Shown piece by piece: positions 5,894 to 43,720 of a DNA stretch of 43,720 bases (positions within the stretch are counted from its first letter, which is position 1; every line of letters begins with the position of its first letter). Where the stretch lies: the NCBI GenBank assembly GCA_029834535.1, contig JAQMWT010000499.1, positions 1-43,720 on the forward strand, read 5' to 3'. Below the pieces are notes generated by a model. That model had not been told where the DNA came from and did no database searches. It saw only the letters and a program-made list of their open reading frames with translations. The position numbers were made by a program, and so were the translations under genes. This DNA comes from Chrysophaeum taylorii (lineage: Eukaryota; Sar; Pelagophyceae; Pelagomonadales; Pelagomonadaceae).

Positions 5894-5912
5894 ACGGTGA
5901 CCAAACATATAT

Positions 5913-11114: not shown

Positions 11115-11768
11115 GTGGTGGAAACTCAGCTCACCCGCCCCTCTTCGCCTAACCGTCGGTCACAACGTGACCGCTCAACGGTCCTGAACCACGGGTGGTT
11201 CCACCACACGTCCAACCAAGCGCTCACACTCCGCTCACGCCATGCTGTCGAACATTCGAAAGAGGGTAATTTCAAGGAATCAGCAAGAATCGATAGATTC
11301 CAATGGGAGATCCAGCAAGATATGCTAGATCGGCAATAGCAACACAGGTCCTCGATACAGGAGTATCCTTGGAGAAGCAGGTGTGGGTGTCAAGCATGAC
11401 ACCGCCAAATTCAAGGTAACAGGCAGGTAACAGGCACATAAGTGGGGGGGGGGGTGGTTATTACCTAACTAACTAACTAACTTCAGACCTCTCCCGAGCA
11501 TGGGAGCCAGGCCGGACCGACAGGTGCCAGTCCGGAATCACGGGCCTGTAGACGAGGAGCGCCGAAAGGTCGGTCGGCGGAGAGTGACCATCAAGCTTGT
11601 CGCCATGCGACGAGGAGACCGCGATGTGACTGACAACCAACTCGTCGATAACCTTCCGTCTTCGCCCCCCGGCCATACCCCGCCCCACTGCGAACGTTCC
11701 GGCTGCCAACCGGCCCGCTCGGGAGGCGAATAGGTGCCAACCTAAGCCGGGGGGTTATTACCGCCACA
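11115..11768 (+). repeat. Solo LTR with 5-bp TSD, containing a SINE
   Basis: The element starts GTGGTGGAAACTC (TGTGGTGG if one base earlier) and ends TTACCGCCACA. These are near-inverted ends like those of gypsy-1 LTRs. GGTTT occurs immediately on both sides (11110-11114 and 11769-11773), and the related left LTR lacks the insertion at this point. Without the SINE it is about 357 bp. No internal region or second LTR is present, as expected after LTR-LTR recombination. Confidence 0.7.
11466..11752 (-). mobile_element. SINE-like element, 5'-truncated, 10-bp TSD
   Basis: Minus-strand copy of the LINE-related SINE family with the GTTAG tail. A perfect 10-bp duplication GGTTATTACC (11456-11465 and 11753-11762) flanks it. 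Compared with the full copy at 32117-32483 it lacks the first ~80 bases of its 5' end, the signature of incomplete target-primed reverse transcription. It lies inside the solo LTR, so it is younger. Confidence 0.92.
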
Positions 11769-18400: not shown

Positions 18401-18860
18401 AATAACTCGCGCAGATGCGCGGATAACGGTGCTGCCGCTCGCGTGCCACGCCTGTTGCGCCGCAGGGGACAGCACCACGGCCACACCCTGGCTGCCGCGG
18501 GAAGACTGCTCGGAGGCTGCCAAACCGGAACAAACAGCGACGTAGCCGTGTCGCTCGAGCGACTCGTTGCCGGTGAGCCACGTCTCCTGCAACGTGGCCG
18601 CGAAGATGTCCGCCGCCGTAAAGATGCGAACAACTCTTCCTTCTTCTCGTCGCGTCGCAGACCGCGAACGTTTTGGTCCACGAATAATCGACCCGTCCGT
18701 CGCTTTCTACCCAACCGAGCGAACCCCATCCCAGCGCAGACTTTCCGGGTGCTAACCGGCCAGCCCGGGAGGCGGGCAGGCACCGTCTCACTCCGGGACG
18801 GCCGGGGCCGCCGCAGGGAGCAAGCGTATTAGGCGCCGTCCTCCATCGCAACCAAAAGGT
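15401..18860 (-). mobile_element. APE-type LINE, nearly complete
   Basis: About 3.46 kb on the minus strand. The 3' end is a short GTTAGTTAG tail at 15401; the 5' region near 18832-18852 has GTTGCGATGGAGGACGG, shared with the SINE family. One long ORF covers endonuclease and RT. The 5' leader is about 150 bp and the 3' UTR about 80 bp. No target duplication was found between CACTACAGTTCAG on the left and the right flank, so one end may be altered. Ends and single-ORF layout resemble ingi/Vingi-like and other APE LINEs; the clade cannot be settled by eye. Confidence 0.9.
15485..18592 (-). CDS. LINE ORF: APE endonuclease and reverse transcriptase
   Basis: 1035 codons from the ATG at 18592. The N-terminus is an APE-type endonuclease: QETW (2-5), GMDGNA (120-125), LDHM (189-192), SDH (214-216). 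A linker at 270-305 is rich in Asp/Ala. RT follows with FIDFVKAFD (631-639), GVKQGDVLGP (687-696) and YADD (748-751), so the catalytic Asp residues are kept. The C-terminus has the RQLRWAGHVARM motif seen after RT in many LINEs; no RNase H. The usual endonuclease start with NVRGL is found just upstream (about 18650-18670) in another frame, so the true start lies upstream and a one-base shift near 18620 separates it. This copy is therefore probably inactive. Confidence 0.92.
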   Translation of the reverse strand: MQETWLTGNESLERHGYVAVCSGLAASEQSSRGSQGVAVVLSPAAQQAWHASGSTVIRASARVIALRLDVQDDDDRDLGLFVMSAYAPVGTAPDEKWDAFFDDIDLALQARRPDDILVLGMDGNAALGVRSKYVVDGPCGPYGAPYVNNAGRRLHTFLATRRLASVGTFFRKRAYASWLHPRSWKTYQLDHMISRRRDVHRFADVGLTSSLVDSDHRALKCILRVKVRLARPPGTRPSLARLDYAPLRSESTRFGFRRRWCSRVLDIFGLGRGSHDNATDDAPTDATDEIPDADQADADQGSPSSPYSRLARAAASASDALLPKTRRLRPGWFEDAAEELQPLIERPNSLHAFVLSLGARRRLRSASTILDDLRAIKSRLAKPVARAKERWITRLCAGLNAGSESLGGTSKYWNTVERLRRGLTKTTLARQVQMTKADGSRCSSPQENADVLKAHFKQLYSRQPRYDPTVINDVDQLPIRPELGEPPTQEAIKRAVGQLNCTAPGESGLRAEVWKALATDARTLPLLERVVLEFWESEVQPAEWDVGLLGILPKKGDLSLPGNYRGIMMLEVAQKIVSNIVRARLNVICEALDHESQCGFRPERGTSDATFSLKLALKKRREHGQDSWVLFIDFVKAFDRVPRELLWEVLLKFGVPPKLVAVIKGLHRIQVHFSVSGVVASVDSIIGVKQGDVLGPVLFVLFMAALTTSFRRRHGRTPCVYRTRKDFQMTNRSWSARGDEFPFDESAYADDVAFLFWDRHIAASETPRLIEHCDAWGMEVHCGNRHTKAASKTEMLFVARPAHLYGDPKSFDDTNLSDIELGRGRFIPVVDQFKYLGSVLSRDCRDDSDVDARIKKASQAFGALRDCIFASKSVSARAKRLVYVSLVLAILLHGAESWCLTEVLFRRLRCFHAQCARVMCRVTRKHTWSHHISTEILRRRLGLESIDVYVTRRQLRWAGHVARMPFSRLPRKMLSSWVRSKRPPGAPQMTYGRSFAKALPKCDIPFNSWHDLAQDRAQWRSAIHALSSQASTPTV

Positions 18861-20105
18861 TAACGATCGCGAAGGAAATTATGTGCTTTTAATGAACAAC
18901 ACGAAATGCTCAAACTATACTCCACCCTCATGGAACGAGTAATTTATGTCCCATGGCTCAAAACCATTTTGGAGTCAATGCATTCGCAGCTGCCTTATAT
19001 ACGCGAGCATTTCCCACCTCCAGTATGACGCAAGGTTACAACACGTTTGCTCCATACAGTAACTTCATCTACTAGCCCACGAATACCTACAGTAACTTTA
19101 CTTTGCTCTGGGATGTCCACTCCTGCATTCTTGGCTTGCGCTTCTTATGACTTGCAAATCAACATCAACGTTAAAGTTCTTGTTGAGAGCGACGACAATA
19201 TCACGCACATGCTACGAAGACGTTTTGGTAATTCCATCGAAGTTCCCCCATCCCTACCTAGGTTTTAGACATATCTCCATCAAGCATCGGACGTTGAACG
19301 TGCACGATATTACACTGACATAGTGGAATTGACATCACCATGCACAAATCGCAACATAATCGACGGGAGATCCATTTCCACCTTCGAACGCGATATGGAT
19401 GATTCCTTGTTTCCAAGTGCTCTAAGTGTACTTGAGCTTTTAACGCCGTTTGTTCTTTTCATGGAAATGACACCACCACACTCCGCATCGTACGAAGACC
19501 ATATACGAGTTGCTACTCTCATCTTCTCAACGACGCACTACACGGTGGACATATGTGACCGATTTCCTTGCTATCTATGTGGAGATTATCAAGCCAGAGA
19601 ATGATGAATCCTCGTTGCACGCAAATATAACACCGGCCCTCACGATCTGCTTTCATGGCCTAATAAACCAGTCACCTCCTTTCTGGATATCGCAGACCAT
19701 GCTAACTCCATCAGTCGCAAGTTAATAGTCGACGAACCTTGGACACAAGTCTTCCCTGACTTACCATTTGTGTCCACACCTAAACCCTATAACATTTTTT
19801 AGTCGTACCGGATCCGTACGCTTAAATGTGACTGAGCTCGAAACCTTAACTATGCTGTTCCCTCGTCTGCACTCTAATAAAACAGTCGAACATCCCAGTC
19901 AATATGAAATGGAAGGCATTTCTAATTTTCGAATGGGATTCTTGACTAATTCAAGAAAACCACTAGCTTCCATGAGATCCCCTATTGAACTCAAAGCTTT
20001 TGTGCGCCTCTATAATATCATGGGACGATTATTCCCTAAATCCATCACATTACCTGCGCCCTTTCGTATTACACTATTGAATCTAACCATCCATCTCACA
20101 GGTTA
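18861..20105 (+). other. Unrecognised decayed coding-like region
   Basis: Fragmentary plus-strand frames at 19047-19268, 19323-19604 and 19768-20106 give protein-like compositions without a family I can name. The last, about 112 residues with helical character, may be gag. They could be the continuation of the copia-like element interrupted by the LINE, but no domain confirms it. Stops and frame changes are frequent. Confidence 0.3.
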
Positions 20106-20428
20106 ACTAACTAACTAACTTCAGACCTCTCCCGAGCATGGGAGCCAGGCCGGACCGACAGGAGCCAGCCCGGAATCACGGGCCTGTAGACGAGGAGCGC
20201 CGAAAGGTCGGTCGGCGGAGAGTGACCATCAAGCTTGTCGCCATGCGACGAGGAGACCGCGATGTGACTGACAACCAACTCGTCGATAACCTTCCGTCTG
20301 CGCCCCCCGGCCATACCCCGTCCCACTGCGAACGTTCCGGCTGCCAACCGGCCCGCCCGGGAGGCGAATAGGTGCCAACCTACGCCGGGAGGGCGGATGC
20401 CCTCGCAAGGCTCAGGATTCATGAGGCA
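20106..20428 (-). mobile_element. SINE-like element at a junction of two retroelements
   Basis: Minus-strand copy with GTTAGTTAGTTA tail, about 323 bp, lacking roughly the first 40 bases of the full-length form. Unlike the other copies it has no target duplication: the left flank (CATCTCACAGGTTA) and the right flank (TGCTTTGCGCTCCC) do not match. This suggests that recombination or deletion joined two loci here. Confidence 0.85.
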
Positions 20429-27942: not shown

Positions 27943-28278
27943 TATGGCGGCAACTCCTGACCGCTAAGGCTTACCCCCCCTTTCTGGAGGCTTGATACCC
28001 GTTCAACGGGACACCTTTCCCGATCTTCTTAGTGACATCATACCTCTCTCTTGTGAGAAGCATTCTTGCTGTATTCTTGTAGTTTCCTTGCTATCATATT
28101 TCAAATTTCCATCTCTCCATCTTGTTGAGAGGCTTGGTGAGCGTGAGCAAGGTGCGTGGCGAGCATACCCGACCCCGAGTCCGTGTTTTCCTTGTTCAGT
28201 GAGGTCTAGGACGAGTCGGTAAGTACCCCCTTTGTCACCCGGGGGGGGTCGGGAAGGTTTTTTTTCTGTGCCGCCATA
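27943..28278 (+). repeat. 5' LTR of gypsy-1
   Basis: 336 bp, starts TATGGCGGCAACTCC and ends TGTGCCGCCATA, so its ends are inverted (TATGGCGGCA / TGCCGCCATA) rather than TG..CA. It is about 93-95 percent identical by eye to the 3' LTR, differing by an extra ATTTCAA-containing block and a longer G run. Confidence 0.93.
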
Positions 28279-28709
28279 CGTGGTGGAGTACACGAGATCG
28301 TGCGACTACATCGGTCGCCGACGAGCGAGTGCTGCCGTGCGTGTTGTATTACGTGGTCCGGATTTGTACGCGCGCCCTGAGCAAGCACACGGAGTTCCAT
28401 TGGACCGGTTTGCGCTGAGAATATACGCGAACGTTGTTTGTGTTCGTACGATCCGAGTGACGACGAACACGCGTGCGAGTTGGAAATCGCAGCGCATTCT
28501 CCCGGGAATTGATTTTGGTATAGCTGGACGGTGGAAGCTGTTTGGCGAGTGGGATCGCTACCCACGGGCATTTTTGAATTGCCAGCGGATTGGAATTCCA
28601 TGAGTGCTGTTTTTACAGCGACAGATAGCGTTGTTGGAATCAACGTGAATTACTTCGAGTGATCGGATCCGGACGTGCTTCGAGATTATTGATCGATATT
28701 TGATACAGT
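28279..28709 (+). promoter_or_regulatory. gypsy-1 leader
   Basis: About 430 bp between LTR and the first ATG. TGGTGGAG starts two bases after the LTR and is the position of a tRNA primer site, but I cannot name the tRNA. No other signal seen. Confidence 0.4.
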
Positions 28710-30218
28710 ATGGAGATAAACCCAGACGTGCGTGTTGAAGAATCTCCTCCAGTTCTTCCCGCCGCCCCTGAGATAGGCCGCGAGGAAGGTGAATTAAGAG
28801 AGGCCGAGGCAGTCGACGTTGCTGACGTGCCCCCTGATGTGCCTCCGGATACTGCCAATTTTTCGCCGTTGAGTCCAACGACTCCGGACAGTGGCGAGCG
28901 TGTTACTATTGAGCGCGGATCTGCAACCCGAAGTCGACTTCGTGAAGACCTCGAGCGGAGACGTCGCGAAAATGAACGATTAGCTGAGCGTCAAGCCAAG
29001 CAAGATGCGGATAAGCCGCCTGGGAATATCCGCCGATCTTACGAGATCCTTTTTTGTGGGGCAAGAGAACGTGCCCGCACTGTGTGTTCTTCTGGACCAC
29101 CCATGATGAAGATGAACACGGAAGTCGCGTAGTTTGCAACCGCGATCCGGATCGTTACTACTGTGCGATGTGGAAGCGAATTCGCAAGCAGAAGAAGCAG
29201 CCCATATCGTGGTCCGATTGGGCGAAGCGTGATGATGCATCTCATGCGAACGCCACGCACGGATCGGAGCCTTCTAATGAAATTCAAACGGCCCTCACCG
29301 ATCTTGGAACCGCAATGGCGACCATGGTGAGCGAGGTCAGAAGCATCAAGGATACTACGTCGTTTTCTACAGCGAGACGGACGATCACCTTCTAGACGAT
29401 CGTCGCGCCGACATCGAAGCCAGAGCCCTGATCGAAAAGCCCATACTGCTCAAGACAGCCCGAGTCCTTGCCGTCACCGGAGCTCTAGTCGCAATTCGCG
29501 CCGGCGCCGACGTCATCGACATTGCGATGACGAGCATGACGGAGGCAGATATCAGGATAGTTCGGGACATTCGAGCGCAACTTTCGCGTTCCAATCTTTA
29601 TGTGACGCGCCGCCAATGTCGGGGGTTGTCTTTTACCCGACGGCGCGCCCTACCCGAGTCTCCGATGATGTTGCCGATGTCGCTGTGACGAGCAGCCATC
29701 GTTTGCAACGGGAGCAACATACCACCAACGCTCGGATCGTTCGGTGGCCTTCTACATCGTATGTGGAAGCAATGTCAGATGCTACTTGGGATTCTCCGCA
29801 CTACTGGGAAGACTCCGATTCGGAGACCGACGAACCCATGACGCAGGTTCCAGTGTCCCCCCATTCGTCAATGTGCATGTCTCGCAGGGCAGTTCACGAT
29901 GATGACGTTAAACCTTTTGAGTTGACGTCGGGGGCGACGTCTTCTTTTCCTACGGGACCCCCGAGACCGTTTAAGCCCCGATACCGTTCCAGCCGTTTTA
30001 GCCGATGTTCTAGCCGATACCGTTTTAGTCGCAGCAGAGCAGACCACAGCGGCGCCGATGGAGGAGAAGTTGACGGGAATGTCCGATTTGATGGACGAGA
30101 AACGACGATTACCAGAAGCTCCTATGCTTTCGCTTCCAACAGATGCGCCGGGGACGGCTCGTGCTTTTTCTGCTGCCCCCCCCCGACAATCAACAGTGGA
30201 CGTTCCGCCGGATCCTGA
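28710..30218 (+). pseudogene. gypsy-1 Gag-like frame
   Basis: Starts at the ATG at 28710. The first ~110 codons are acidic and Pro-rich, then helical and Arg/Glu-rich. A T-run near 29050 shifts the frame; 29054-29395 encodes a Cys/His cluster CPHC...H...C...C followed by a basic segment. Coding sense then returns to the first frame near 29397 with an Arg/Ser-rich tract (29397-29560) and an acidic end to 30218. It overlaps the RT frame by 160 bp in another phase. No capsid or standard CCHC knuckle is recognised, so Gag is inferred from position. Confidence 0.5.
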
Positions 30219-32034
30219 ACCTGAACAGGAGCCGAAAGTAAGGAGCGAGCCGAATGTGCGCGTCAAAGGTGAAAAGACCAATAAGAGCCACCCTGAGGTG
30301 AGGTTCAAATACGAAGAAAATTTCGATGTGCCATGGAAGGATGCGCCGCGCGATGCGGACGGTGTACCGTTACCGCAGATTCCCGAGCACGTCAAGGACA
30401 ATGATGCGACGAAAGTCGTAATTCCGACGAAGGAAGAAGTTGAGAAGGTTGTTCGAGATCTGGGAATTCCCGACAACCCGCATTTGGATGATGATGCGAA
30501 GATGATGTTGAGCCATTGCGTGCAATACGCGTGGGCTTTCTTTGATCCGATTATCAGACCCGTGGACTCGCCACCGGTTTCTCTACGCTTTAAAGACGCA
30601 AACCCACGACCGATCAAGATGACGCCTTATAGGTTGACGCCAGCAAAGCTCGAGTGTCTCAGAAAGCAGATCAATGAGTGGTGTCGCGATGGAGTGATCC
30701 GACCGGCGAACTCTCCGAGGGGATTTCCTGTACTGATGCTGCCTAAGAAGGGAGCCGAGGCCGGGACGTCGAATGCTTTTCGTGCTGCCGTTGACTTGCG
30801 TCAGCTCAATGATCAGCTGGTCAATGACAGTTGGCCGAATATTCGCCAAGATTATGCTTTGGCTTTTCTTGCCATGCGCCGTTGGCGGACGTGCATTGAT
30901 ATTCGATGGGGTTATCATGACTTTCGTTTGGACGCCGCTGCTCAGGACGCTCTTACGATGTTTAGTCCATTTGGAGCCCATAGTTTCTTGCGCTTGCCTC
31001 TAGGAGTAAAAACAGCAGGAGGTCTCTTTTGTAAGCAGATGGCTCGCGATTTGTCCACATGGATGTATAAGGACTTGGTCGCGTTTGTCGACGATATTAT
31101 GATGGGATCGGGTGAACTCCATCGACATTTGCAAGTTTTGATTGAAGTGTTGTGCCATTTAGCACAGTGAGGATATAGTGGACGAACTTCGAAGTTCCAC
31201 CTCCTCAAGGATGAAATCGAGTTTTTGGGACATATTTCGACTCCGGAAGGCTTGAAGCCGAATCCCAAGACGTTAGAAGCGTTGCAGCAAATGCCGATTC
31301 CCGGTACGTTGCCCAATACGTCCCCGAAGACCCAGATTCGATCTTTCATTGGTATGAGCAACTATTGCCGCCGATATGTGAAGAATTATTCGAAGATTGT
31401 GGAGCCACTTAGGCGATTGGGTCTTGAAGGCGTTAAGTTTGAATGGACGCCTGAGTGCCAAAAGGCATAGGACACGATCATCGAAGCTTTGGTGGATTCT
31501 CGTGGAGTTTATCATCCTGACTACGATCTTCCCTTTCAAATCCGCTCGGATGCTTCCAAGGATGGTCTGGGTGCGTATCTTTTTCAGCTCGTGGAAATCA
31601 AGGACGAAACCGGCAAGGTGACACGAGAGGAACGAGTAATTGAGTATTGGAGCCGAGCTGTGCCGAAAGAGATGCGGAACTATGAGCCTCGCCGGCTAGA
31701 GCTACTGGCATTTGTTCTTTCTCTTGAGCATTTCCGCTCTTATATTGAAGGTCACAAGACGATCCTTGAAACAGATCATCGCAACTTGGCGTTTTTACGA
31801 AAGGCGAAGCACTCGTCTGGGCAGTTGGCTCGATGGGCGATGCGGCTCGCCAATTTTGATCCTGAATTGGGCTACAAGCCAGCGAAGTCGCCGGGAATGA
31901 GCATCCCTGACTGTCTCTCTCGCAATCCTATAGATCATGTCATCGAGACGGACGAGTTTGGTGAGCCCTTGAACCACGCGTATCTAGTGTGCCAAGAACT
32001 CCCTCGTTCTGTTGATGATGAAGGAGTACCTTAA
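30058..32034 (+). pseudogene. gypsy-1 reverse transcriptase and RNase H
   Basis: A single frame with two in-frame stops. RT: DGVIRPANSPRGFPVLMLPK (about 30690-30750), DLRQLN, FLRLPLGVKTAGGLFCKQM, and FVDD (about 31084-31095) as the active site. Connection: GHISTPEGLKPNPK, then RSFIGMSNYCRRYV. RNase H: RSDASKDGLGAYLF (about 31540-31581), EYWSRAV, RLELLAFV, ETDHRNL and CLSRNP. The stops are TGA at 31168-31170 and TAG at 31468-31470. At the second, gypsy-2 has TGG (Trp). No retropepsin precedes the RT. Confidence 0.93.
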
Positions 32035-32116
32035 CCTGCGTGCCATGTCATTCTGTCGTTTGTTACGACTGAGTTGCCTGTGGAGGACGAGAAAGAAGAC
32101 CTTGATGATCCGATGC

Positions 32117-32483
32117 CTTACCCTGATCGCCGACCGCATGGTTGCGATGGAGGACGGTGCCTCATGAATCCTGAGCCTTGCGAGGGCATCCGCCCTCCCG
32201 GCGTAGGTTGGCACCTATTCGCCTCTCGGGCGGGCCGGTTGGAAGCCGGAACGTTCGCAGTGGGACGGGGTATGGCCGGGGGGCGAAGACGGAGGGTTAT
32301 CGACGAGTTGGTTGTCAGTCACATCGCGGTCTCCTCGTCGCATGGCGACAAGCTTCATGATCACTCTCCGCCGACCCACCTTTCGACGCCCCTCGTCTAC
32401 AGGCCCGTGATTCCGGACTGGCTCCTGTCGGTCCGGCCTGGCTCCCATGCTCGGGAGAGGGCTGAAGTTAGTTAAGTTAGTTA
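32117..32483 (+). mobile_element. Full-length SINE-like element, 13-bp TSD
   Basis: 367 bp, sense on the plus strand. Perfect 13-bp duplication GATGATCCGATGC (32104-32116 and 32484-32496). It starts CTTACCCTGATCGCC, carries GTTGCGATGGAGGACGG at 32141, and ends in a GTTAG-type tail (GTTAGTTAAGTTAGTTA). This is the best reference copy of the family. It interrupts the spacer between RNase H and integrase of gypsy-1. Confidence 0.95.
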
Positions 32484-32499
32484 GATGATCCGATGCAAC

Positions 32500-33217
32500 T
32501 GGTCACGTCCCATGCTACGAAACAACTTCAGAAGCAACTTCTGCAGACCCAGCCTAGTATTTTCCGTGATGCCGATGATTACCAAGAGTACATCGACAAG
32601 ATTCCGGATAATTTGACTTTCGAAGAGATAGCCATTCTCTTCGTCGGTACGGAGCCAATTATCGCTATCAAGTGGTGAAAGGAGTTCTCTACCGTGCCGC
32701 ACCCGACTTGCACCCGATGATAGTCGCACCCCGAACTTTACGGACGCGCATCATCCGATTGTACCATGACGCACCTCTCAATGGTGGTCATATGGGTCGT
32801 CAAAGTACAGTCCAGTCGATACTTGGACGTTTTTGGTGGCCCCATATGTCTAATGAGGTGGGTGCTTACATTGCTGGTTGCATAGTGTGCAAGAAAGCTC
32901 GTACGCCTGAACCAAAGAGAGCAGGTCTGCTTCAGCAACCGGTGTATGATGGTGATTGTGTCGTCCTTCGTATGGATTTGTTTGGACCTTTGCCCAGTGC
33001 TGGTCCCGAGACATATCTCATTGTCTTTTTTGATCCATTTTCTCATTTCTTGATTATTGGCGTACTACACCGTAAGACTGCTGAGTCAATCCTCGAGTCA
33101 TTTGTCGCGAATATATTACTCAAAGGTTTATACCTCAGAGGATTGGTACTGACAATGGGAAAGAGTTCGTCAGCAAGTTGATGGGAGAGTTTTGTCATCT
33201 TTTCAATGTTCGGTATA
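32500..33217 (+). pseudogene. gypsy-1 integrase, N-terminal and core part
   Basis: Frame changes at about 32660 and 33140. The zinc motif is visible as YHDAP, GGHMG and CIVCKK (about 32760-32905), followed by MDLFGPLP (first catalytic Asp, about 32970) and FFDPFSHF. The second catalytic Asp (TDNGKEF, about 33150-33170) is in another frame. The SINE at 33218 interrupts the domain shortly after. Confidence 0.88.
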
Positions 33218-33478
33218 ACTAACTAACTAACTTCAGACCTCTCCCGAGCATGGGAGCCAGGCCGGACCGACAGGAGCCAGTCCGGAATCACGGGCCTGTA
33301 GACGAGGGGCGCCGAAAGGTGGGTCGGCGGAGAGTGATCATCAAAACTTGTCGCCATGCGACGAGGAGACCGCGATGTGACTGACAACCAACTCGTCGAT
33401 AACCTTCCGTCTGCGCCCCGCGGCCATACCCCGTCCCACTGCGAACGTTCCGGCTGCCAACCGGCCCGCCCGGGAGGC
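33218..33478 (-). mobile_element. SINE-like element, 5'-truncated, inside integrase
   Basis: 261 bp on the minus strand with the GTTAG tail at 33218. ATA occurs on both sides (33215-33217 and 33479-33481). Removing the insert plus one ATA restores the integrase reading frame across the site, which supports exact boundaries. It lacks about 105 bases of the 5' end. Confidence 0.9.
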
Positions 33479-33481
33479 ATA

Positions 33482-34539
33482 GTACCACGATTCCGTATCA
33501 TGCTCAGGCTAATCCTGCGGAAAGGGTCAACCGCTTTATCAAGGCGTTCGTCCGTGCGTACCTTCAAAACCGCAAGATCACGGAATGGCCCGAATTCGCG
33601 GAGTACATTGCTTTCTGTTACAATCGTAAATTTATTCCGGGGACTCAGATCTCACCTTTCATGCTTCGTCTTAACCGGCAGCCTATATTGCCAACCGATC
33701 ACACGATCATGGATCTTGATGTCCGCCGCCTGCCGAAAACTCGCTCCGATGTTGTGGCAGAGACTCGCGAGATGCTGAAGTTCTATACCGCTACGGTGAA
33801 CGAAGCTCGTGAGAAGGCTCTTCGTAAACAACGTCTCGCCTATAATGCGGACCATGTTGATGTGGAGTATGAAGAAGGTTCACATGTTCTGCTCTACATC
33901 CCTTTTCTTCAGAACAAGCTTCGACCGGAATGGCGCGGTCCATTCGTTATTTTGGAACGCTTGTCCCCGGTCACTTACAGGGTTGAGTCTCTTGATTCTC
34001 CTCCCGAACGCCGTTGTGTTCATGTTAGCCAGATCACCCCTGTGATGGTTTCTCCAGTGGTCGATCGAGCTGTGCCCAAGCCCAAGGAGACCTTTCGGGA
34101 TGATTACAAGCATGGTAAGTTCGTTATCTTTCGGATTCCGGATAATAAACGGTCCGATTGGCGAAAGAAGATTTATGTCGCTGAAGTTTATGAACCCCAT
34201 GATTTTGTGAATGATCGAGTCGCTCTGCATTTCTATGCTGATCTCGGTCCCCATGACGAGGTTTCTTATTACAAGCCTACTTCACATCTCTCTACTCGCA
34301 AGCTTAAGCCGGAATACAAGGACGTGGACGGTCGCAGTTTCACCGACAAGACCAAGGTCAACAACAGTACCACTCCTTGTGTAACCGACTTCGCCCCGCA
34401 TGAGATCGATGTGTTGATTCCTAAGTTCACTTTGCGTGGTGGACGCGTTCCTGAACCTGTCGTTGAACGTGCCTATAAAAAGATTCGTTCTCGAGATGCT
34501 CATTCAGCCAAGGCTCGTGCTTCTCGCCGGACTCGCTGA
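33482..34539 (+). pseudogene. gypsy-1 integrase C-terminus and extension
   Basis: In frame from 33482: STTIPYHAQANPAERVNRF has the third catalytic residue (Glu), then the C-terminal GPY/F-like module EEGSHVLLYIPF...WRGPFVILERLSPVTYRV (about 33870-33990). A ~150-residue extension follows, with GKFVIFRIPDNKRSDWRKK and YVAEVYEPHDF...LHFYADLG, ending in a basic tail at 34539. The extension sits where chromodomains occur in chromoviruses; it is not a recognisable chromodomain and could be a chromo- or Tudor-like fold (inference). This is one intact frame of 292 codons from 33661. Confidence 0.85.
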
Positions 34540-34569
34540 GGGCAGCTCGTGTTCTCACCAGGGGAGTCC

Positions 34570-34892
34570 TGTGGCGGCAACTCCTGACCGCTAAGGCTTA
34601 CCCCCCCCCTCTCTCGAGGCTTGCTACCCGTTCAACGGGACACCTTTCCCGATCTTCTTAGTGACATCATACCTCTCTCTTGTGAGAAGCATTCTTGCTG
34701 TATTCTTGTAGTTTCCTTGCTATCATTACCATCTCCCCATCTTGTTGAGAGGCTTGGTGAGCGTGAGCAAGGTGTGTGGCGAGCATACCCGACCCCGAGT
34801 CCGTGTTTTCCTCGTTCAGTGAGGTCTAGGACGAGTCGGTGAGTACCCCCTTTGTCACCCGGGTGTCGGAAAGGTTTTTCTGTGCCGCCATA
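34570..34892 (+). repeat. 3' LTR of gypsy-1
   Basis: 323 bp, starts TGTGGCGGCAACTCC and ends TGTGCCGCCATA. A short purine tract (ACCAGGGGAG) just upstream at about 34557-34566 is the likely polypurine primer. The target duplication AGAGC follows. Confidence 0.93.
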
Positions 34893-35360: not shown

Positions 35361-36153
35361 GTTTGTCCCCCGATTCAGGGTAAGGATCGGGCAGGCCCGC
35401 GAGCCAGCCATTGATCCTCCAAGCCGTATACGGCGACCTCGCAGACTATTTCCACGACCCGCGTCGGCTCTTTCAGTGCGCCATTCTCACGCCCCGTCGA
35501 AACGATGTTGTCGATGCTGACAACGCGCGCATGACCGCGGCCTTTCCCGGAGACGAGGCGTCGGAGTTCTTTTCGGCTGACTAGGCTGGGTCGGAAGACG
35601 CCTCGCTCTTTACAGTAGAGTTTTCAACTCCCTGACAACCAACGGCATGCTGACTTTGAGCGCGAGCTTAAGGTCTTCGCAACCTCGACCCGTCGCACGG
35701 CCACTGCAACGTTACCAGATACATGATCGATCGTGTCGTTTTCACCGAGGCTCCTCCAACCTGTATCCCTTAAGACCCGCCTACGCCAAACGATCAACAA
35801 GAGCCAGGGCCAGACGCTCCGCGAGGTCGGCGTCCTCTTGCCCAAGCCCGTCTTCTGCCACGTCAAGCTCTACGTGGCTCCCTGTCGATCGGCAACCCCG
35901 AGGATATCCTCTTCTGGGTCGACGACTCCACCCTACCCCACACGTGCTGCGCAATACCGATAAGCCCCCTCCCGACGTCTACACGCGCACTGTAGGTGGA
36001 CTTACTGGGACCAGGTGAACTTACTGGTGTTTTTGGAGTAAACTCAAAGGTTAGCGGCGTGTGCGGATCAAAGCACCTTAGATTGGCGGGGGTGAGAGCG
36101 ACGAGCTCAAAGGAGAGTGCGGTGAGTGGATGTGAGCACGAGTGGGCGTGGCA
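35361..36153 (+). mobile_element. Helitron copy 4, 3'-truncated
   Basis: Begins GTTTGTCCCCCGATTCAGGG and matches the other copies through [32 protein letters not shown] (about 35793-35852) and the first subterminal repeats (35996-36030). It stops at about 36153, where gypsy-2 starts. This copy retains the GDEASEFFSAD segment in frame, which copies 1-3 have lost by indels. Confidence 0.75.
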
Positions 36154-36154
36154 G

Positions 36155-36367
36155 TAATGCCCATTTCCCCCACTTGCCTGCCTCCCACCTGACTTACCCT
36201 GATTGTTGCCCTGGTATTGACCTTGCATTTATGGGGGGGAGTCATCTTGACACCTTCGCCTGCGCTTCCACTGGACCCAATGTACCGGGCATTTGTATTG
36301 CTTTCTTGCTGTCTTCTTGATATTACCCTCTTTTGATTGTTCGATTTCGTGATGGCGTGAGGTATTA
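36155..36367 (+). repeat. Possible 5' LTR of gypsy-2
   Basis: The element seems to begin where the Helitron is cut. TAATGCC at 36155 and GGTATTA ending at 36367 form near-inverted ends that start with TA and end with TA, as in the gypsy-1 5' LTR. The length of ~213 bp is short. The 3' LTR lies outside the window, so this is only a proposal. Confidence 0.35.
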
Positions 36368-36952
36368 CGCTGAGATCGGGCGTGTGGTGGTTTCACCCGT
36401 GGTTCGGGTAGGGAGAAAGGGTTGTTGAGGCCCCCGGTCCGGCCAGGAGGGGCGGGTATCTGAGAAAACCACTACAGTGGTCTCAGAAACGGGAATCGAT
36501 AGTCTAACTCCCGGACTATCGATCTCCTGTTTCTCGGCGGCGAGTCGGTTCGTAACGGTCGAGTGAGTGCGAAGCCGACGCATTTGTGGGTGAAGATCCA
36601 GAGGATCACGGGTACCTCCGCGGGGTTCATTTTACGTGATTCGGATCGAACGGGGAGCGGAGTCACTACGACTCATTTTGCATACTTTTGCATATCGATC
36701 GTCATACTGTAAGGCAGTATCGCAAGACCTAACTAGCTCGTGCGAGGCAGACCACCTCCCTGACGGCGAGCGACTACACCGGGAAGGCCGTCCATAGTCT
36801 TCTCGCGCAAGGCAATAGCTTTCGTAAGACCAGCGCACCGGTACAGCGCGCAGTATTCAGACGGCTGCCGGCAATTGTCGTCTGACGAAAAGAATACAAA
36901 ACGTGAGTTGTGAACATCCGGGACAAACATATTATCCGGGCAAACCGCGATC
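36368..36952 (+). promoter_or_regulatory. gypsy-2 leader with tandem hairpins
   Basis: About 585 bp before the gag ATG. Two inverted repeats lie side by side: TGAGA...ACCAC / GTGGT...TCTCA at 36461-36485, and ATCGATAGTC / GACTATCGAT at 36495-36523 (10-bp perfect stem, 9-base loop) extended outward by AGAAAC / GTTTCT (36485-36490 and 36529-36534). In retroelements such leader hairpins often serve RNA dimerisation or packaging; here that is inference. Confidence 0.55.
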
Positions 36953-39900
36953 ATGGCAGAGAGGCCAATGACAGAACGATCGCAGTGGTTTCGGGACGCA
37001 CTGGGGCGTCTGCAACGATTCAGTGCAGGGACTCCGTTTGCGTCTATTGGAAGAACACCGTTCAGTACGCCCTTTCAACGACAGGAAGCCGAGGAAAGCG
37101 GCATCGGAAGAGAGGCCAGATCATATGATAGCCTCGACAGCCCCCCGAGCGTGGTCATCCTTCCGGATCCACGCGGCGGCGAAGGGGGAGATACGGTTGC
37201 GTCAGACGCAACTTCAAGACAAGGGGAGCCGACGTTCCCGTACGCACAACCCTACGAACGTGCGATGAATACTACGGAGTCATCTCGAGCGGAACCCGAA
37301 CCGTTTACGGCGATGCGTGGACCAGAGGAGAGTGCACCTCCTAGGCCACCATCTGTGAATACGAGAGCGACAGATTTTCGCGGGGATGTCGACCCCGAGG
37401 TTCTGCAGACCATGAACGAACGATTCGAGATGTACCAGTCGCAGATGGAGCAAATTATACGTGAACTTGAGAACACCCGCCGCGACGCTCAACAACAACG
37501 CTCAGAAGTGGAGCGACAGCGGATCGACAACGATCGACTTCGGCGAATGATGGAGGAATCCATGCGGGCGCATGCTCGAGAGGCACGGCCAACCTCTCCG
37601 AATGCTACGCGTGTTACGCCCGACGACGATGATGATGCTGTATCGGCACTGACTGACGATCAGCCACCGCGAAGTCGACCGGAGCCTACCCCGCACCATC
37701 ATACTGACCCCGGTTCGGCGCGCCCTCGTGACGAAGAAGAGATACTTCGTGTCAAGAAGGGAGCTGCTGGTATGACACGTATCACATTCTCGAATCTCAC
37801 GGGGCAAATTACCAAGGACCGTGATGAGGTGGACGCGTGGTGGATGCAATTGCGGCGTATGATGGAGGGAAAGATTGATAATCCCTCAATAGCGATGAAC
37901 GTGATTGGAGGCGAGTATCAACTCGCCCCTATGGAAGCTTATCGCAAGTGGGAAGTTGAACGACCGCAGATGTGGAAACAATATAAGGATGGGACCATCA
38001 CGATGAAAGAGTTGCGCCAGCATGACGAGGACTGTTTGGATGCTATGCAGGAAGCGACAAAGCTCCCTTGTCCACCTCGGGCTACGGTTGAGGAGCTTGA
38101 ACGTGCATGGTTCGATTTGCGGCAGGTTAATTTATCATTGAATAAGTATATCGCGCGATGGGTGCAGAAATTCGGCCAGTGGAGAGCAATGTCAGGTCGT
38201 GATACTGATCCGGCTGCGTTCCGTTCGCATTTTATTGCTGGTCTCAATTCTGGGCGCTTGCGGACGAGCGTCGAACTTGCTCAGGCCTCACCGCATATGA
38301 ATGCGTCTACGCTCACCCTCAACGATGTCGTTCAATTGACCAACCAAATTCCTAAGATTCTGGAAGCCAACCCTACTGCCAACATCGAAGATGCGATTAA
38401 GAAAGAGAAAGTAAAGGAGCACGCACCACGAATGAGGAGAGAGCAGCAGCAGCAGAGGCAGCAGTTGCAGCCAGTCCAACGGGTTGGTTATGTTACTGAC
38501 TCGGGAGTTGGAACCCGGCTACCACAGGGGATAGATAACCATACGCGTCAAGCAATTGCGACGTGCCTCAGTTGCGGCCGGCATGGTAATTTTTATCACG
38601 ACAACGGTGTATGTCCTGTGCCGGACAATCCCTCGAGGAGGAGGCGTGCTGCTCAGACGTTGACGGCCGTGGGTTTTCCAGCAACGCCAGAGGGACAGGA
38701 GCAATACCGACGGACGCTTTTAGCTGCAGCAGGACAGGCTTCAGTGACTCAGCTGGCGCCGCGCGTTGTGCAACAGCCGCAGGTGGTCTACACAGCAGCA
38801 CAGGTCCCAGGTGCAGGTCAACAGCAGCGTTTGGTTGCAGGCTCTCAACAACAGGTAGTCCGAAGGCAGCCCGCAGTGCAGCGGACCGCTCAGACCTCGG
38901 TGCGCCTGGAGGATCTGACTACGGCTCTCAACACGATGAACTTGATTCGTCAGGCACAGCAGACGCCTCCGCCGGGCAGAGGGCGACAATCTAAGAGAGC
39001 GAACCCTAGCCAGCAAAATGAGGGTGTCGCCGCTCAGTGGCTTGAAGTGCTTGGCGAAGATCAGGATGACACTAAGCGAGCGGACTACTGCACTGTGCAG
39101 TATTCTGAGCTCATGGAGGGAAACGTATATGACGATGACGAGGTTGGGGGCGATGATGATAGCTTCTCTGCAGAAGGCTATTCCCCTGGTGACCCCATGG
39201 AACTTCCTTCCTTTTTGGTCATCACTGAAGATGCATGGGTGGAGGAGCAGGAGCAAAGGACCGAAGTGACTGGAATTGCATCTAGAGTTCTTTCGGAAGA
39301 CGGAGATAATCGCGACGAATTGGGGTATACGATTGTTCGTGTGGGACAAGATACCTTGGTTGCCATGGATATAGTGCCACCGAGGGACAACTGTGCCGAG
39401 CGTTATGCTGCTCACCCTTCCATCTCTTCGGATTTCGAGAATTTCTGCCCTCAGACTGCGTTGAATACCACCCAGGATCCCGACCATCGTGAAAATAAAG
39501 CCGTAAGGTACGATGGTGCGAGATCCGCCTCTTTGACGTATGTGCCTGTGGCTATCTCTTCGCAATATGGTTCGAAATATTCCATCATCGCTGCCGGCTT
39601 GGATGGCATGGCTGATTCCCCCTACATCGATCACCGCTTGTATCGCAAACTTGATCGTGACGGCAAAATCATCTATCGTCAGCCACTCCCTACGATTCGC
39701 ACTCTAAATGGGTCAGGAGGTTCGGGAGCTGCTATTCGAGAATGGGTCATCCTCCGGATCTCATTGGTGCCGACGACATCCATGCTGCTCATGTTCTTCG
39801 TTGGTCAAACGAATGGGCAGTTACTATTAGGAGCACGAGAGTTACGACTCTTGGGTACGATTTTGGATTATGCGACAGAGAGAGCTATTTTTCGGCGTTC

Positions 39901-40741
39901 TGAAGTGACCATTGGAGTTCTCGAGAATCGAACTTCCGCCTCGCCACAAGACCAGCATGGAATTGTGCTTTACAATGATGCATTCGATGCGACTCCGCAA
40001 GTAGTGCAGATGTTCCCGACAGCTAAGCTTGCTGTGCAATACGGAAACATCCAAACTTGGACGCCAGTTGGTAAACCATGGAGTTATGACAGTCTATGGC
40101 GTTCTATTTGTATCAGAGCGAATCACCAGCACATTCCTTCCGGTGATCAGACTGCTGGAAAAGCTGAAGACCAACTTGAATGCCCTGCATACGAGGAAGA
40201 TATCATCCCTCATTTCGCGTACGTGACGAGTACTCGATTTCTTCTTCCAAGCCAACCGTACTTCTTGGAGATGGAGTGCGATGTGCCGCTGGAAGAGAGT
40301 CATGTATTCCGACCTTATCGGACACTCCTTCAAGATCGCCGCCTTGCACCTGGTTCCTATTCATCGTATTGTGCTGATGAGCCCAACGAAGTTCATGTGG
40401 CTGTGGAGCACATTGGTGACGAACCCATTGGTATCGACCCCGAAGTCCCGGTGGTCGAAGGCGAGATCATGCCGCATGAAGGATGTGTCAACATGCAGCT
40501 AGAAGCCATTGATGACGTGTGTCATGCCACTCATACGGCTGCTGTTGACGACGACGAAGTCGAGGAGGATGTCTTGAGTGACAGACCTCCTCCTCAGCCA
40601 TCTCCAGATGAAGAAGTGAAAAAAACACCAGAAATGGAGATGGAGGCGACTGTTAAGGAGCTGCTATCTAAGCACGCCTCCTTGGTTTGGATACCCATCA
40701 CCGACACCTTTGTCGTCGTCTATTTTGCTGGCGCTGGATGA
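36953..40741 (+). CDS. gypsy-2 Gag, protease and start of methyltransferase
   Basis: 1262 codons from the ATG at 36953. Residues 1-150 are disordered and Ser/Pro-rich; 154-212 a coiled coil; about 275-490 a helical capsid-like domain; 493-510 a Gln-rich linker; 538-554 a Cys/His knuckle C-X2-C-X7-H-X4-C (CLSCGRHGNFYHDNGVC), wider than the usual CCHC. At 880-980 is a retropepsin-like domain with GLDGMADSPYID (active-site Asp884) and the later LLLGARELRLLGTILDY block. Residues 1250-1262 (TDTFVVVYFAGAG) are motif I of a C5-cytosine methyltransferase. The TGA at 40739-40741 ends the frame in that motif; coding continues in the same frame. Long and otherwise intact. Confidence 0.88.
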   Translation: MAERPMTERSQWFRDALGRLQRFSAGTPFASIGRTPFSTPFQRQEAEESGIGREARSYDSLDSPPSVVILPDPRGGEGGDTVASDATSRQGEPTFPYAQPYERAMNTTESSRAEPEPFTAMRGPEESAPPRPPSVNTRATDFRGDVDPEVLQTMNERFEMYQSQMEQIIRELENTRRDAQQQRSEVERQRIDNDRLRRMMEESMRAHAREARPTSPNATRVTPDDDDDAVSALTDDQPPRSRPEPTPHHHTDPGSARPRDEEEILRVKKGAAGMTRITFSNLTGQITKDRDEVDAWWMQLRRMMEGKIDNPSIAMNVIGGEYQLAPMEAYRKWEVERPQMWKQYKDGTITMKELRQHDEDCLDAMQEATKLPCPPRATVEELERAWFDLRQVNLSLNKYIARWVQKFGQWRAMSGRDTDPAAFRSHFIAGLNSGRLRTSVELAQASPHMNASTLTLNDVVQLTNQIPKILEANPTANIEDAIKKEKVKEHAPRMRREQQQQRQQLQPVQRVGYVTDSGVGTRLPQGIDNHTRQAIATCLSCGRHGNFYHDNGVCPVPDNPSRRRRAAQTLTAVGFPATPEGQEQYRRTLLAAAGQASVTQLAPRVVQQPQVVYTAAQVPGAGQQQRLVAGSQQQVVRRQPAVQRTAQTSVRLEDLTTALNTMNLIRQAQQTPPPGRGRQSKRANPSQQNEGVAAQWLEVLGEDQDDTKRADYCTVQYSELMEGNVYDDDEVGGDDDSFSAEGYSPGDPMELPSFLVITEDAWVEEQEQRTEVTGIASRVLSEDGDNRDELGYTIVRVGQDTLVAMDIVPPRDNCAERYAAHPSISSDFENFCPQTALNTTQDPDHRENKAVRYDGARSASLTYVPVAISSQYGSKYSIIAAGLDGMADSPYIDHRLYRKLDRDGKIIYRQPLPTIRTLNGSGGSGAAIREWVILRISLVPTTSMLLMFFVGQTNGQLLLGARELRLLGTILDYATERAIFRRSEVTIGVLENRTSASPQDQHGIVLYNDAFDATPQVVQMFPTAKLAVQYGNIQTWTPVGKPWSYDSLWRSICIRANHQHIPSGDQTAGKAEDQLECPAYEEDIIPHFAYVTSTRFLLPSQPYFLEMECDVPLEESHVFRPYRTLLQDRRLAPGSYSSYCADEPNEVHVAVEHIGDEPIGIDPEVPVVEGEIMPHEGCVNMQLEAIDDVCHATHTAAVDDDEVEEDVLSDRPPPQPSPDEEVKKTPEMEMEATVKELLSKHASLVWIPITDTFVVVYFAGAG

Positions 40742-41986
40742 TCAACGTTGGGTATCCGGCGATGCAATGAGCTATATGGCAGTTCATTTCGCATTGTTCT
40801 GGCTTTGGATGCTTGTCCTCAAGCCCGAGCCACCTTTGAACTCAATTTTCCCAAGATTCCCTATGTTTTGCATGAGTTGGGGAAATCTCATCGTCGTACA
40901 TACGACTTGGTGTTGTCGTATTTACATTCAGATTTTTGGAAGCACTCTTATTTTCACGCCAGTCCGCCGTGTATCTATGGATCGACTGCCAATTTGCACT
41001 ACAGGGACGCACGCAAGGGCGCTACTATTACTTCTTGGGTCCTGCGTCATTTCCGCAACGCACCTTATGTGATTGGACGATGGACACTCGACCAGGAACC
41101 ATCAGTGATCCCTCTTGTGCATCACCAATTTTATGTGCCGCGTATTGTTGATTTCTATAGTATCACGCCAGAGCTGCTGTGCTCGCGCACGCGCCTACTT
41201 GCTTGCAATGTTCGCTTGGAACTGCCGTTATTATCGCGTGTACCACCGAATTTACGGGACCGTTTTGGCCCAGCATTGGGATTTACAGGTGGTCACCCGC
41301 TCATTATAGTGAACAGCTTCTCATCTACGCGCCCGGCTATCGGCCCTGCCTTCACGGTGACGCACAATAAGCTCCGCTTAGGACCTCATTTCTCGAACAC
41401 CCGTCCACTCACGTTGCAGATGCACCAGGAAATTATGACCGTTCCTGCTACGTGGCAATGGGGTGCGACAGTTTCCGAGACAGTAGCTATGAAGATGCTT
41501 GGCAGTATGGTGCCACCCGCGACTATGACGCGGATTGCGCTAGCAGTGCACAATTCGTTTGAACCTTCACTTCGAAATTTGGGTAAGTTGCGGAATATTG
41601 CGACGACTACGCTAGCCCAACCTGATCACCGTATTCTACGGTTTTCACCTTTTGCTGTAGAGTCGCGCATTCCAACGCTCGACCCTGTCACTCGAAGTGT
41701 ATCATGGATTGCGCCCGATGAACTCTACTCTTCTGCGAGTCCTGCACCATCCGCTGCTGCCACCACCACCCCGCCACCTCCTTTACTTACATCGCCTGGG
41801 ACGGCTTCATCTTTTGCAGGGGGCACCGTCGCCACTGCTGTTATGCAGAGCAACCAAGTTGATAACCAGCCCTCCGCAACTGCTGAAGAAGAAGGCACCG
41901 CGAAAGAGCGACCAGCGTATTTCAATACGTACGACGCTCCGTGGGCGGACACGCCTCACGACGAACATGGTCAACTTCACCGGTGA
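40742..41986 (+). CDS. gypsy-2 C5-cytosine DNA methyltransferase-like domain
   Basis: Same frame as the preceding polyprotein, after one TGA. With residue 1 at 40748: motif I continues as STLGIRRC and then LALDACPQARATFELNF (19-34, acidic residue for SAM). Motif IV is HASPPCIYGSTAN (70-82) with the catalytic Cys75 at 40970-40972. A weak ENV-like place is DQEPS (115-119). Motif VIII is SRTRLLACN (146-154). A short target-recognition region has RPAIGPAFTVT. Motif IX is RPLT (219-222) and motif X GSMVPP (252-257) with a helix IALAV. Residues 325-400 are a Ser/Thr/Pro-rich linker, then PWADTPHDEHG, homologous to the segment before RT in gypsy-1. Retrotransposon-borne DNMTs are known from dinoflagellates and charophytes. 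Confidence 0.82.
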   Translation, partial: STLGIRRCNELYGSSFRIVLALDACPQARATFELNFPKIPYVLHELGKSHRRTYDLVLSYLHSDFWKHSYFHASPPCIYGSTANLHYRDARKGATITSWVLRHFRNAPYVIGRWTLDQEPSVIPLVHHQFYVPRIVDFYSITPELLCSRTRLLACNVRLELPLLSRVPPNLRDRFGPALGFTGGHPLIIVNSFSSTRPAIGPAFTVTHNKLRLGPHFSNTRPLTLQMHQEIMTVPATWQWGATVSETVAMKMLGSMVPPATMTRIALAVHNSFEPSLRNLGKLRNIATTTLAQPDHRILRFSPFAVESRIPTLDPVTRSVSWIAPDELYSSASPAPSAAATTTPPPPLLTSPGTASSFAGGTVATAVMQSNQVDNQPSATAEEEGTAKERPAYFNTYDAPWADTPHDEHGQLHR

Positions 41987-42980
41987 TGCCTCTCATTTAG
42001 CGGATCAGGAGAGCATGCAGGTCATCCCTCCGACCGTCGCGCAGGTCGAAGAGGTGATGACTGAGTTGGTATTACAGAGCATCCTGCTTAGATGATGACG
42101 AGAAGCTGATGATTAAGCATTTAATCTCGTATTCGTGGGCATTTTTCGATGATGTGATGAGAACCTGTTGATTCACCTGAAGTGACGCTCCGGTTCAAAG
42201 AAGAGAACCCGACTCCGTCAAACTCTCGCCATATCGGTTGTCGAAAGAAAAATGATGTTTGCGGATGCAGATTGAAGCATGGACCCGAGACGGAGTTATT
42301 CGTCCCGCGAATTCTCCATGGGGTTTCCCTATTTTGATGTTGCCTAAGAAAGGTGCTGAGCCTGGCACTTCCAATGCCATAGCAGCTGTCGACCTACGGC
42401 GCCCCAATGCATTGCTCAAGGATGATAGCTGGCCGAGTGTGTGCATGGCTGACGCGTTGATGTTCCTCATTGACAGTTCTGTCGTTCCAGTTTGATATTC
42501 GTTGGGGCTATCACAACGATTGTCGCTGGATGCCACAGATGGATCACCACTAGTCCTCTGGGAGCGTACAGCTACATGCGTCTACCTTTGGGAGTCAAAC
42601 CAGCCGGAAGTTTGTTTTGCAAGCAGTTAACACTGACTTGTCGCAATGGCTTATCGTGATCTCGTGGCATATATCGACGATATCTCGCCGGTCACGCAGA
42701 TACGCCATCATTGCGTGCGTTTTGTGCAAGTTATTCCATCTCGTCTTGAAGGGCAGTGCCAAGATCAAGAAGATTCATTCGGCAGAAGTCATTTAGTTTT
42801 TGGGTCATTTATCTACCCCGAACGGACTTCTTCCATCACCAAGATCTTTAGAAGCCATCAGACACATGCCAATCCCTGGCACTTTGTCGGATGCTGACCC
42901 TAAGAAGCAAGTGCGATCTTTCCTTGGAATGGGGAGCTTTTGCCGGCGTTATGTATGGAATTTTGCGAAAGTTGAAGAGC
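41987..42980 (+). pseudogene. gypsy-2 reverse transcriptase, decayed
   Basis: Follows the methyltransferase in a shifted frame (VIPPTVAQVEEVMTEL at about 42019-42066). RT pieces are close to gypsy-1: DGVIRPANSPWGFPILMLPK (about 42286-42345), AAVDLRRPN, YIDDIS (about 42670, in place of FVDDIM), and GHLSTPNGLLPSPR in another frame (about 42803). At least five frameshifts or stops occur. Confidence 0.88.
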
Positions 42981-43720
42981 CATGAAGACAACTGACGTTG
43001 CCGGACGTGAAATTCAAGTGGACGAAAGAGTGTCAGGAAGCTTGGGATACCATCATCGAGGCTATTGTCACGTCGAAGGGCGTCTACCATCCTGATTACT
43101 CGTTGCTTTTTTACATTCGAACCGATGCTTCCGCGCATGGGTTGGGTGCTTACCTATTTCAAAAAGTACCAGTCGTTGACGACGATGGAAGAGAAGGAAT
43201 CGAAGAGAGAGTTATCGAGTACTGGAGTCGAACCGTGCCTAAGTCGATGAGGAAGTATGATCCTCGGCGCTTGAACCCTCGCAGCGCCTCTGCTCTCAAA
43301 AATTTCCGATTTTATATCGAAGGTCATCAGACAAAGTTAGAGACGGATCATCGTAACTTAACGTTTCTGCGGATTCGAATCACGTCTGACAGATAGCACA
43401 TGGGCTATGCGGCTTGCTGCGTTCGACCGGGAGCTCGGATACAAACCTGGAAGCTCCCCTGGCATGCGTATTCCGGATTGTCTGTCGCGCAAACCTATCG
43501 ACAAATTGATCGGATATGTAAAGCTTTTTCGATTTTCCAAGAAATCCCCACCGATGTCCCTGGCACAGCTCGCTTCACCTTCTCTTCGGTGACGATGCCC
43601 ATGCTGACGGACAGCGGACCCACCGCAGCTATGGTGGCAGTTAGTACGCGACAGAACGTACAACCGCTTCAATTCTCGTACGAATCTGAGCCAGTTGACT
43701 CCGTCGAACGTCTCCCTTTT
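42981..43720 (+). pseudogene. gypsy-2 RNase H, running off the window
   Basis: Frame at 42998-43396 with KFKWTKECQEAWDTIIEAI, RTDASAHGLGAYLF (about 43117-43158), EYWSRTV and ETDHRNLTFLR. It breaks at about 43390 and continues in another frame (RELGYKPGSSPGMRIPDCLS, about 43428-43487). After 43500 a spacer toward the integrase follows. Integrase and 3' LTR are beyond the window. Confidence 0.9.

Follow-up and report, generated by a model that had tools for sequence, protein, structure and literature searches.

Cytosine methylation normally silences transposons, and elements that themselves carry a methylating enzyme therefore turn this rule round. A 2018 report described cytosine DNA methyltransferases (DNMTs) borne by long interspersed nuclear elements (LINE), DIRS elements and gypsy elements (PMC5890265). 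The closest described system is KnitGypsy-Dnmt3 of the charophyte Klebsormidium nitens, which is described as a gypsy element with a cytosine DNMT in its Pol polyprotein, present in several copies and with a Ka/Ks below 0.2 (PMC5890265). The same report describes SymbioDIRS-Dnmt3 and SymbioLINE-Dnmt of Symbiodinium as retrotransposon-borne DNMTs present in hundreds of copies under purifying selection, the DNMT of SymbioDIRS lying in the Pol frame together with reverse transcriptase (RT), and states that the copia elements of Symbiodinium carry no DNMT (PMC5890265). Here we describe a DNMT-like domain in a Ty3/gypsy long terminal repeat (LTR) retrotransposon family of the pelagophyte Chrysophaeum taylorii, one broken member of which lies at the end of the window, that is, the whole contig JAQMWT010000499.1 (C499; 43,720 nucleotides).

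The family of the window resembles KnitGypsy-Dnmt3 in carrying a cytosine DNMT within the polyprotein of a gypsy element, and SymbioDIRS in having it in the Pol frame with RT. It differs from the former in that its LTRs are direct, whereas the description of KnitGypsy-Dnmt3 gives it a DIRS-like repeat structure and a DNMT of its own that is Dnmt3-related (PMC5890265). The present genome, in contrast, holds at least 136 and at least 138 matching DNMT stretches of two gypsy families, a profile of these domains (A3, below) found no DNMT3 among PDB chains up to E = 10, and there is a DNMT-bearing copia family in addition. SymbioDIRS and SymbioLINE, as described in the same source, are DIRS (tyrosine recombinase) and LINE elements rather than LTR gypsy or copia elements (PMC5890265). 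Retrotransposons with a DNMT, a gypsy element included, had thus been published before, and the family of the window is a variant of them. No report of a copia-borne DNMT or of the window gypsy family was found among the literature matches listed, subscription papers and preprints being mostly outside the scope of that search.

A methyltransferase-like domain between protease and reverse transcriptase

The coding order of the gypsy family is LTR-Gag-protease-DNMT-RT-RNase H-integrase. An original prediction, made from the letters of the window, had placed a cytosine DNMT-like domain inside the polyprotein of a gypsy element, flanked by a retropepsin-like domain and RT, in the stretch 40700-41750. 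This placement is borne out: the domain scores above the Pfam cut-off for PF00145, its relatives are multicopy Ty3/gypsy elements, and motifs I, IV, VIII, IX and X, under the names I-X that we take to apply, all lie where they had been predicted, with the match itself beginning slightly earlier, at about 40685 (Table 1). In the PF00145 search, which had been set beforehand as a refutation test, the window piece 40748-41986 gave a significant match of 23.1 bits (E = 5.9e-5; cut-off 22), the matched part comprising motifs IX-X only. Stop-free relatives gave 39.2 bits (L031; E = 7.6e-10) and 35.6 bits (L033; E = 9e-9), with two matched stretches each, and the domain of L056, a member of a deeper gypsy family, gave 26.5 bits when searched alone (E = 5.3e-6; cut-off 22).

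A narrow profile of 15 gypsy DNMT copies (A1) matched a reference set of 12 DNMTs (dcm, nine phage or virus enzymes and two genes of the same genome) over motifs I-IV with a probability of 94.6% (E = 7e-8), while four reversed or column-shuffled controls reached at most 1.0%. Profile A3, built from seven sequences of three subfamilies, met a single PDB chain up to E = 10, named cytosine-specific methyltransferase (E = 0.055), through two colinear stretches (motif I; motifs IX-X), neither of which is significant alone; no DNMT3 chain appeared among the PDB sequences up to that threshold. The domain had been proposed to represent a further, perhaps independent, capture, and its separateness from the charophyte one is supported within limits by the lack of a DNMT3 chain, an E value of 0.055 not being significant on its own. 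The NCBIfam dcm model gave L033 14.0 bits only, far under its cut-off. The best tblastn match of the gypsy DNMT in a phage collection, the methyltransferase of Aphanizomenon phage CL131, is weak (E = 5e-3) and differs in being a free-standing enzyme, 32% identical over 29% of the query. In a large protein set no relatives were found at E <= 1e-3 (7999 candidates scored with the window piece, 1220 with the L033 DNMT region and 7994 with profile A3), and none of six pattern matches in viral contigs was confirmed as a relative; both searches depend on short words in common and are limited in length, which makes absence from them weak evidence. No single one of these lines is overwhelming; combined, they leave little doubt about the predicted assignment to the DNMTs.

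Searching the 70.8-Mb assembly (697 contigs), to which all genome searches refer, with the window domain returned at least 136 matching stretches, some elements giving two, and the best besides the window was 98% identical. Within 20 loci examined, window copy included, the 326-codon DNMT stretch is stop-free in 15, and motif I is intact in 18, the other two having a stop. This stop occupies the same motif-I codon in the window (40739-40741) and in L026. Paired direct LTRs, 91-97% identical and 8.9-9.4 kb apart, were present in L029, L031, L033 (only 177 nt there) and L035. The Pol order of both L033 and L056 is RVT_1, RNase H, H2C2 and rve, the last at 43.4 bits (above cut-off) in L056 and at 29.4 bits, below the cut-off of 32.6, in L033, and among PDB sequences L033 Pol is matched best by the Ty3 polyprotein (E = 2.6e-65). 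Copies with an intact frame do exist, since the protease-like part, DNMT and RT share one open frame in the natural copies L010, L033 and L056.

Two loci, L032 and L033, make up subfamily B, whose DNMT is about 81% identical to that of subfamily A. Between A and B, the ratio of nonsynonymous to synonymous substitution rates (dN/dS) is 0.070 for the DNMT (13 copies), with yardsticks of 0.037 for RT (5 copies), 0.127 for the protease-like part (8) and 0.25 and 0.38 for two spacers (9 and 11); the ratios are rough, as dS is about 1.4 and near saturation, and that of the second spacer is not directly comparable because dS there is only 0.54. Of the 20 A loci, 13 entered this sample; five were excluded because of a stop and two because their match did not start before query residue 2 or 14. 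One A copy differs from B at 42, 16 and 133 first, second and third codon positions, respectively, a third-position excess that stands despite the near saturation. Judged from these substitution patterns, the DNMT is under strong purifying selection between the two subfamilies.

A deeper gypsy family and a copia family with a different methyltransferase

RT searches revealed a sister gypsy family at about 64-66% RT identity. Its member L056 has a 3067-aa open frame that extends as far as integrase and includes a DNMT domain, which follows the retropepsin-like part and precedes RT; the identity of this domain to the L033 DNMT is 41%, and the two have in common motif I, ASPPC, EQE, RxRLL and the VP of motif X. 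DNMTs of the L056 type gave at least 138 matching stretches in the genome, none of them within 900 bases of a subfamily A or B place, and a DNMT place lies 0-2.6 kb upstream of at least 105 of the 149 RT places listed. Both gypsy families thus have the domain in one and the same position. On the simplest reading, it would have been part of the element before the gypsy families of this genome split. Many RT places of the L056 family, on C5, C388, C486 and other contigs, have nearly equal scores against L033 RT, resembling a recent transposition burst. The window also holds a relative of the L056 family, a second gypsy element (about 27974-34863) whose LTR-like direct repeats are separated by 6.6 kb and in which no match was found to L056 residues 747-1780, the span that includes the protease-like part and the DNMT.

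PF00145 matches elsewhere in the genome led to a Ty1/copia family with a different DNMT (L038:3097-8949 on C96; also L037, L039-L044 and L003-L008). In the three of eight fetched loci that were tested, PF00145 and RVT_2 share one frame (L038, RVT_2 at 133.2 bits; L039, 97.9 bits) or RVT_2 follows in a downstream frame (L040, 72 bits). The frame of L038 encodes, in order, a retropepsin-like LIDGGASFCFT, the DNMT (with PCQ and ENV), integrase and RT, the integrase being a sub-threshold rve match only (17.2 bits; cut-off 32.6). No copia LTR pairs were seen in eight stretches of about 9.9 kb, which are perhaps too short to contain both ends. All 14 loci tested matched the copia DNMT (12 distinct places, one being the query itself), and the genome holds at least 150 matching stretches. 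Its profile matched the reference DNMTs with a probability of 97.1% (E = 6e-11; four controls at most 0.2%), and its three PDB matches up to E = 10 are all named cytosine-specific methyltransferase (E = 0.025-0.027); the NCBIfam dcm model did not match L038 up to E = 0.1. The best phage-collection tblastn match was the methyltransferase of Caudoviricetes sp. vir335 (E = 8e-7), which differs in being free-standing and is 25% identical over 65% of the copia query; like the best match of the gypsy DNMT, it belongs among the phage and archaeal-virus C5 methyltransferases.

Compared with each other, the copia and gypsy DNMT profiles reach a probability of 0.4%, and a 17-row tree, of low resolution and with long branches, places the copia DNMT beside a virus DNMT (support 88/97) and the gypsy DNMT apart. 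Two separate captures would be the simplest reading of these comparisons. One capture, followed by movement of the domain between element classes, would account for both DNMTs being located after a protease-like part in the same genome; in view of the profile comparison and the separate places in the tree, however, this seems quite unlikely.

The window copy and its surroundings

The window element starts at about 36148 and is interrupted by the contig end at 43720 (Table 1). It shows a 5' LTR alone because the contig ends: the 3' LTR would fall past that end, as would the integrase. The DNMT had been predicted to share its frame with Gag and the protease. It does so, but the frame is cut by the TGA at 40739-40741 inside motif I, after which the remainder of the DNMT continues in the same frame (40748-41986), and RT is spread over two frames with stops. 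With these two defects the copy is not coding-competent; it is a dead member of a multicopy Ty3/gypsy LTR retrotransposon family. The suggestion that the element may methylate its own DNA copies is accordingly unsupported for this particular copy.

The Gag region of the window reached 10.6 bits against Pfam Retrotrans_gag (cut-off 24.1), and no Pfam family was above cut-off for Gag in the window, L033, L056 and the relatives scanned. Scans of the window, L033 and L056 likewise returned no Pfam protease match for the retropepsin-like domain. We take the Cys/His motif to be of the zinc-knuckle type and the domain at 39446-40030 to be of the retropepsin type. In the presumed active-site triad of the latter, the catalytic-type Asp is present and the canonical D(T/S)G is replaced by DGM in the window (39596-39631) and in the Pol of L033 and L056, that is, in both gypsy families; the Ala-Asp that comes next is kept.

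Table 1. Features of the Ty3/gypsy element at the end of the window
Feature	Position	Strand	Evidence or conservation
5' LTR stretch	36148..36427	+	91.6% identical to the L029 5' LTR region (286 aligned positions)
TGA-terminated open frame that covers Gag (by position), a zinc-knuckle-like motif, a retropepsin-like domain and the beginning of DNMT motif I	36953..40741	+	
Zinc-knuckle-like Cys/His motif CLSCGRHGNFYHDNGVC	38564..38614	+	
Retropepsin-like domain, DGM in place of the usual DTG/DSG, then LLLGARELRLLG	39446..40030	+	73.8% identical to the corresponding part of L033 Pol
C5-cytosine DNMT-like domain, broken by TGA 40739-40741	40685..41662	+	80.4% identical to L033 (325 aa); the part past the stop scores 23.1 bits against PF00145
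DNMT motif I FAGAG, TGA 40739-40741 directly after	40724..40738	+	Stop in 2 of 20 copies examined, window copy included
DNMT motif IV ASPPC, catalytic-type Cys	40958..40972	+	PPC kept in 20 of 20 copies
Motif-VI-like LDQEPS (LEQEPS in most other copies; usual ENV)	41087..41104	+	First Glu in 18 of 20 copies; Asp in the window copy
DNMT motif VIII-like CSRTRLL	41180..41200	+	RxRL in 20 of 20 copies
DNMT motifs IX (RPLTLQMHQEIMTVP; 41399-41446) and X (GSMVPP; 41495-41527)	41399..41527	+	
Reverse transcriptase, two frames with stops	42100..43015	+	tblastn with L033 RT, E = 2e-57 and 7e-55
RNase H domain	42998..43396	+	PF17919 E = 1.5e-18; PF17917 E = 3.3e-14

Other repeats occur elsewhere in the window. 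A 1035-aa frame on the minus strand (15485-18592) resembles a non-LTR retrotransposon and contains what we take to be an RT motif of the YADDVAFLF type. Repeats about 290 nt long, marked near their start by ACTAACTAACTAACT, are found in both orientations (5912-6200, 11466-11754, 20104-20392, 33214-33478 and others); they may be solo LTRs or members of a small repeat family.

Host methyltransferases and possible functions of the domain

The genome contains a DNMT5-type gene, a 2086-aa frame (L002:1006-3537, L057:1-3825; C621) whose methyltransferase domain matches PDB 7r76 with E = 2.8e-129 and which also encodes an SNF2 domain (51.6 bits). The depositors of 7r76 named it DNA repair protein Rad8; we take it to be Cryptococcus DNMT5. 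DNMT5 is reported to act as the maintenance enzyme for CG methylation in Cryptococcus and in a diatom, and most stramenopiles, diatoms excepted, are reported to lack DNMT3 (PMC9998398). At L001:1498-2577 on C634, a frame encodes a free-standing C5 methyltransferase (PF00145, 69.6 bits); it is adjoined on the opposite strand by a frame for a chlorophyll-binding protein. The best PDB matches of the latter are among VCP-, PCP- and FCP-type antennae, lineages that presumably point to an alga with a red-type plastid. Perkinsus as the host is not supported, a spliced-leader pattern having given 0 matches; a universal 18S pattern likewise gave 0 matches.

We are inclined to think, with modest confidence, that the gypsy DNMT is a selected C5-cytosine methyltransferase domain of a multicopy family, most likely methylating the element's own cDNA or integration site. 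Being encoded within Pol, it should be found at the site of cDNA synthesis by RT. As a product of the polyprotein, it would stay near RT and could methylate the newly made cDNA of the element (or the integration site), and the host DNMT5-type enzyme could then maintain those marks. Benefits proposed for such elements in the 2018 report are that their DNA would not be recognized as foreign, that it would be protected against being edited or degraded, and that chromatin would be set at the new site (PMC5890265).

Several observations weigh against a selected, DNA-methylating domain. The whole L056 polyprotein stays under the PF00145 cut-off (18.9 bits; cut-off 22), the Pfam matches fall at the domain ends and the middle is divergent, the narrow profile A1 met no chain among all PDB sequences up to E = 10, and a single-sequence fold of the window piece gave a predicted local distance difference test score (pLDDT) of 31.6 and no usable model. 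The usual C5-methyltransferase has ENV in motif VI and GN in motif X, whereas the gypsy families have EQE for ENV, and GSMVP or ASVVP without the GN; because the domain scores above the PF00145 cut-off, these are treated as variations, which would nevertheless lower the odds of ordinary catalysis. The dN/dS ratios are rough, as noted. Furthermore, CpG is not depleted (observed/expected 1.05 in the window and 1.02-1.05 in five fetched element loci), and C>T singletons in the 20 copies show no clear enrichment at CpG (14 of 147, versus 26 of 383 at other C), in a count that includes L028, the source of 120 of the 310 singletons. The element therefore bears no footprint of dense methylation, a result with which sparse, transient or non-CpG methylation would be compatible.

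The missing CpG footprint would also fit an active methyltransferase whose target lies elsewhere, in host chromatin, in rival elements or in RNA, for example the element's genomic RNA or its tRNA primer. Selection indicates use of the domain and not its substrate, and the 2018 report states that a LINE-type retroelement DNMT tested in yeast did not methylate DNA, RNA methylation being proposed instead (PMC5890265). The position beside RT in one polyprotein, on the other hand, favours access to cDNA, and we consider such other targets a lesser though quite conceivable possibility. A fold that was kept while methyl transfer was lost, leaving a nucleic-acid-binding or structural part of Pol, would agree with EQE or a variant of it in place of ENV in the aligned gypsy copies and with the altered motif X, but is unlikely given that the motif I glycines, the PPC Cys, the first Glu of EQE and RxR are common to families 41% identical and that PPC is present in 20 of 20 copies. 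Taken alone, the window copy, weak (23.1 bits) and broken, could even suggest a chance resemblance or a decaying passenger; a dN/dS of 0.07, the presence of the domain at the same site in two families, and Pfam, profile and PDB matches that all indicate cytosine methyltransferases already largely contradict this, and it is highly improbable.

Beyond the favoured reading, a selected methyltransferase that would act on the element's own DNA, a wider scenario may be sketched, in which gypsy and copia elements separately captured prokaryote-like cytosine methyltransferases at the same post-protease spot and their hundreds of copies supply de novo methylation, with the host DNMT5-type enzyme only maintaining it. 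In this full form the scenario is speculative and rather doubtful. One gypsy case was known before; here, the domain appears to be old in the gypsy lineage, is present in many copies and is matched by an apparent second capture in copia. Should it be confirmed that element class and insertion point have converged in this way, this would speak for a genuine benefit during the life cycle of LTR retrotransposons; with a DNMT5-type gene in the host, moreover, the origin of de novo methylation can be tested directly.

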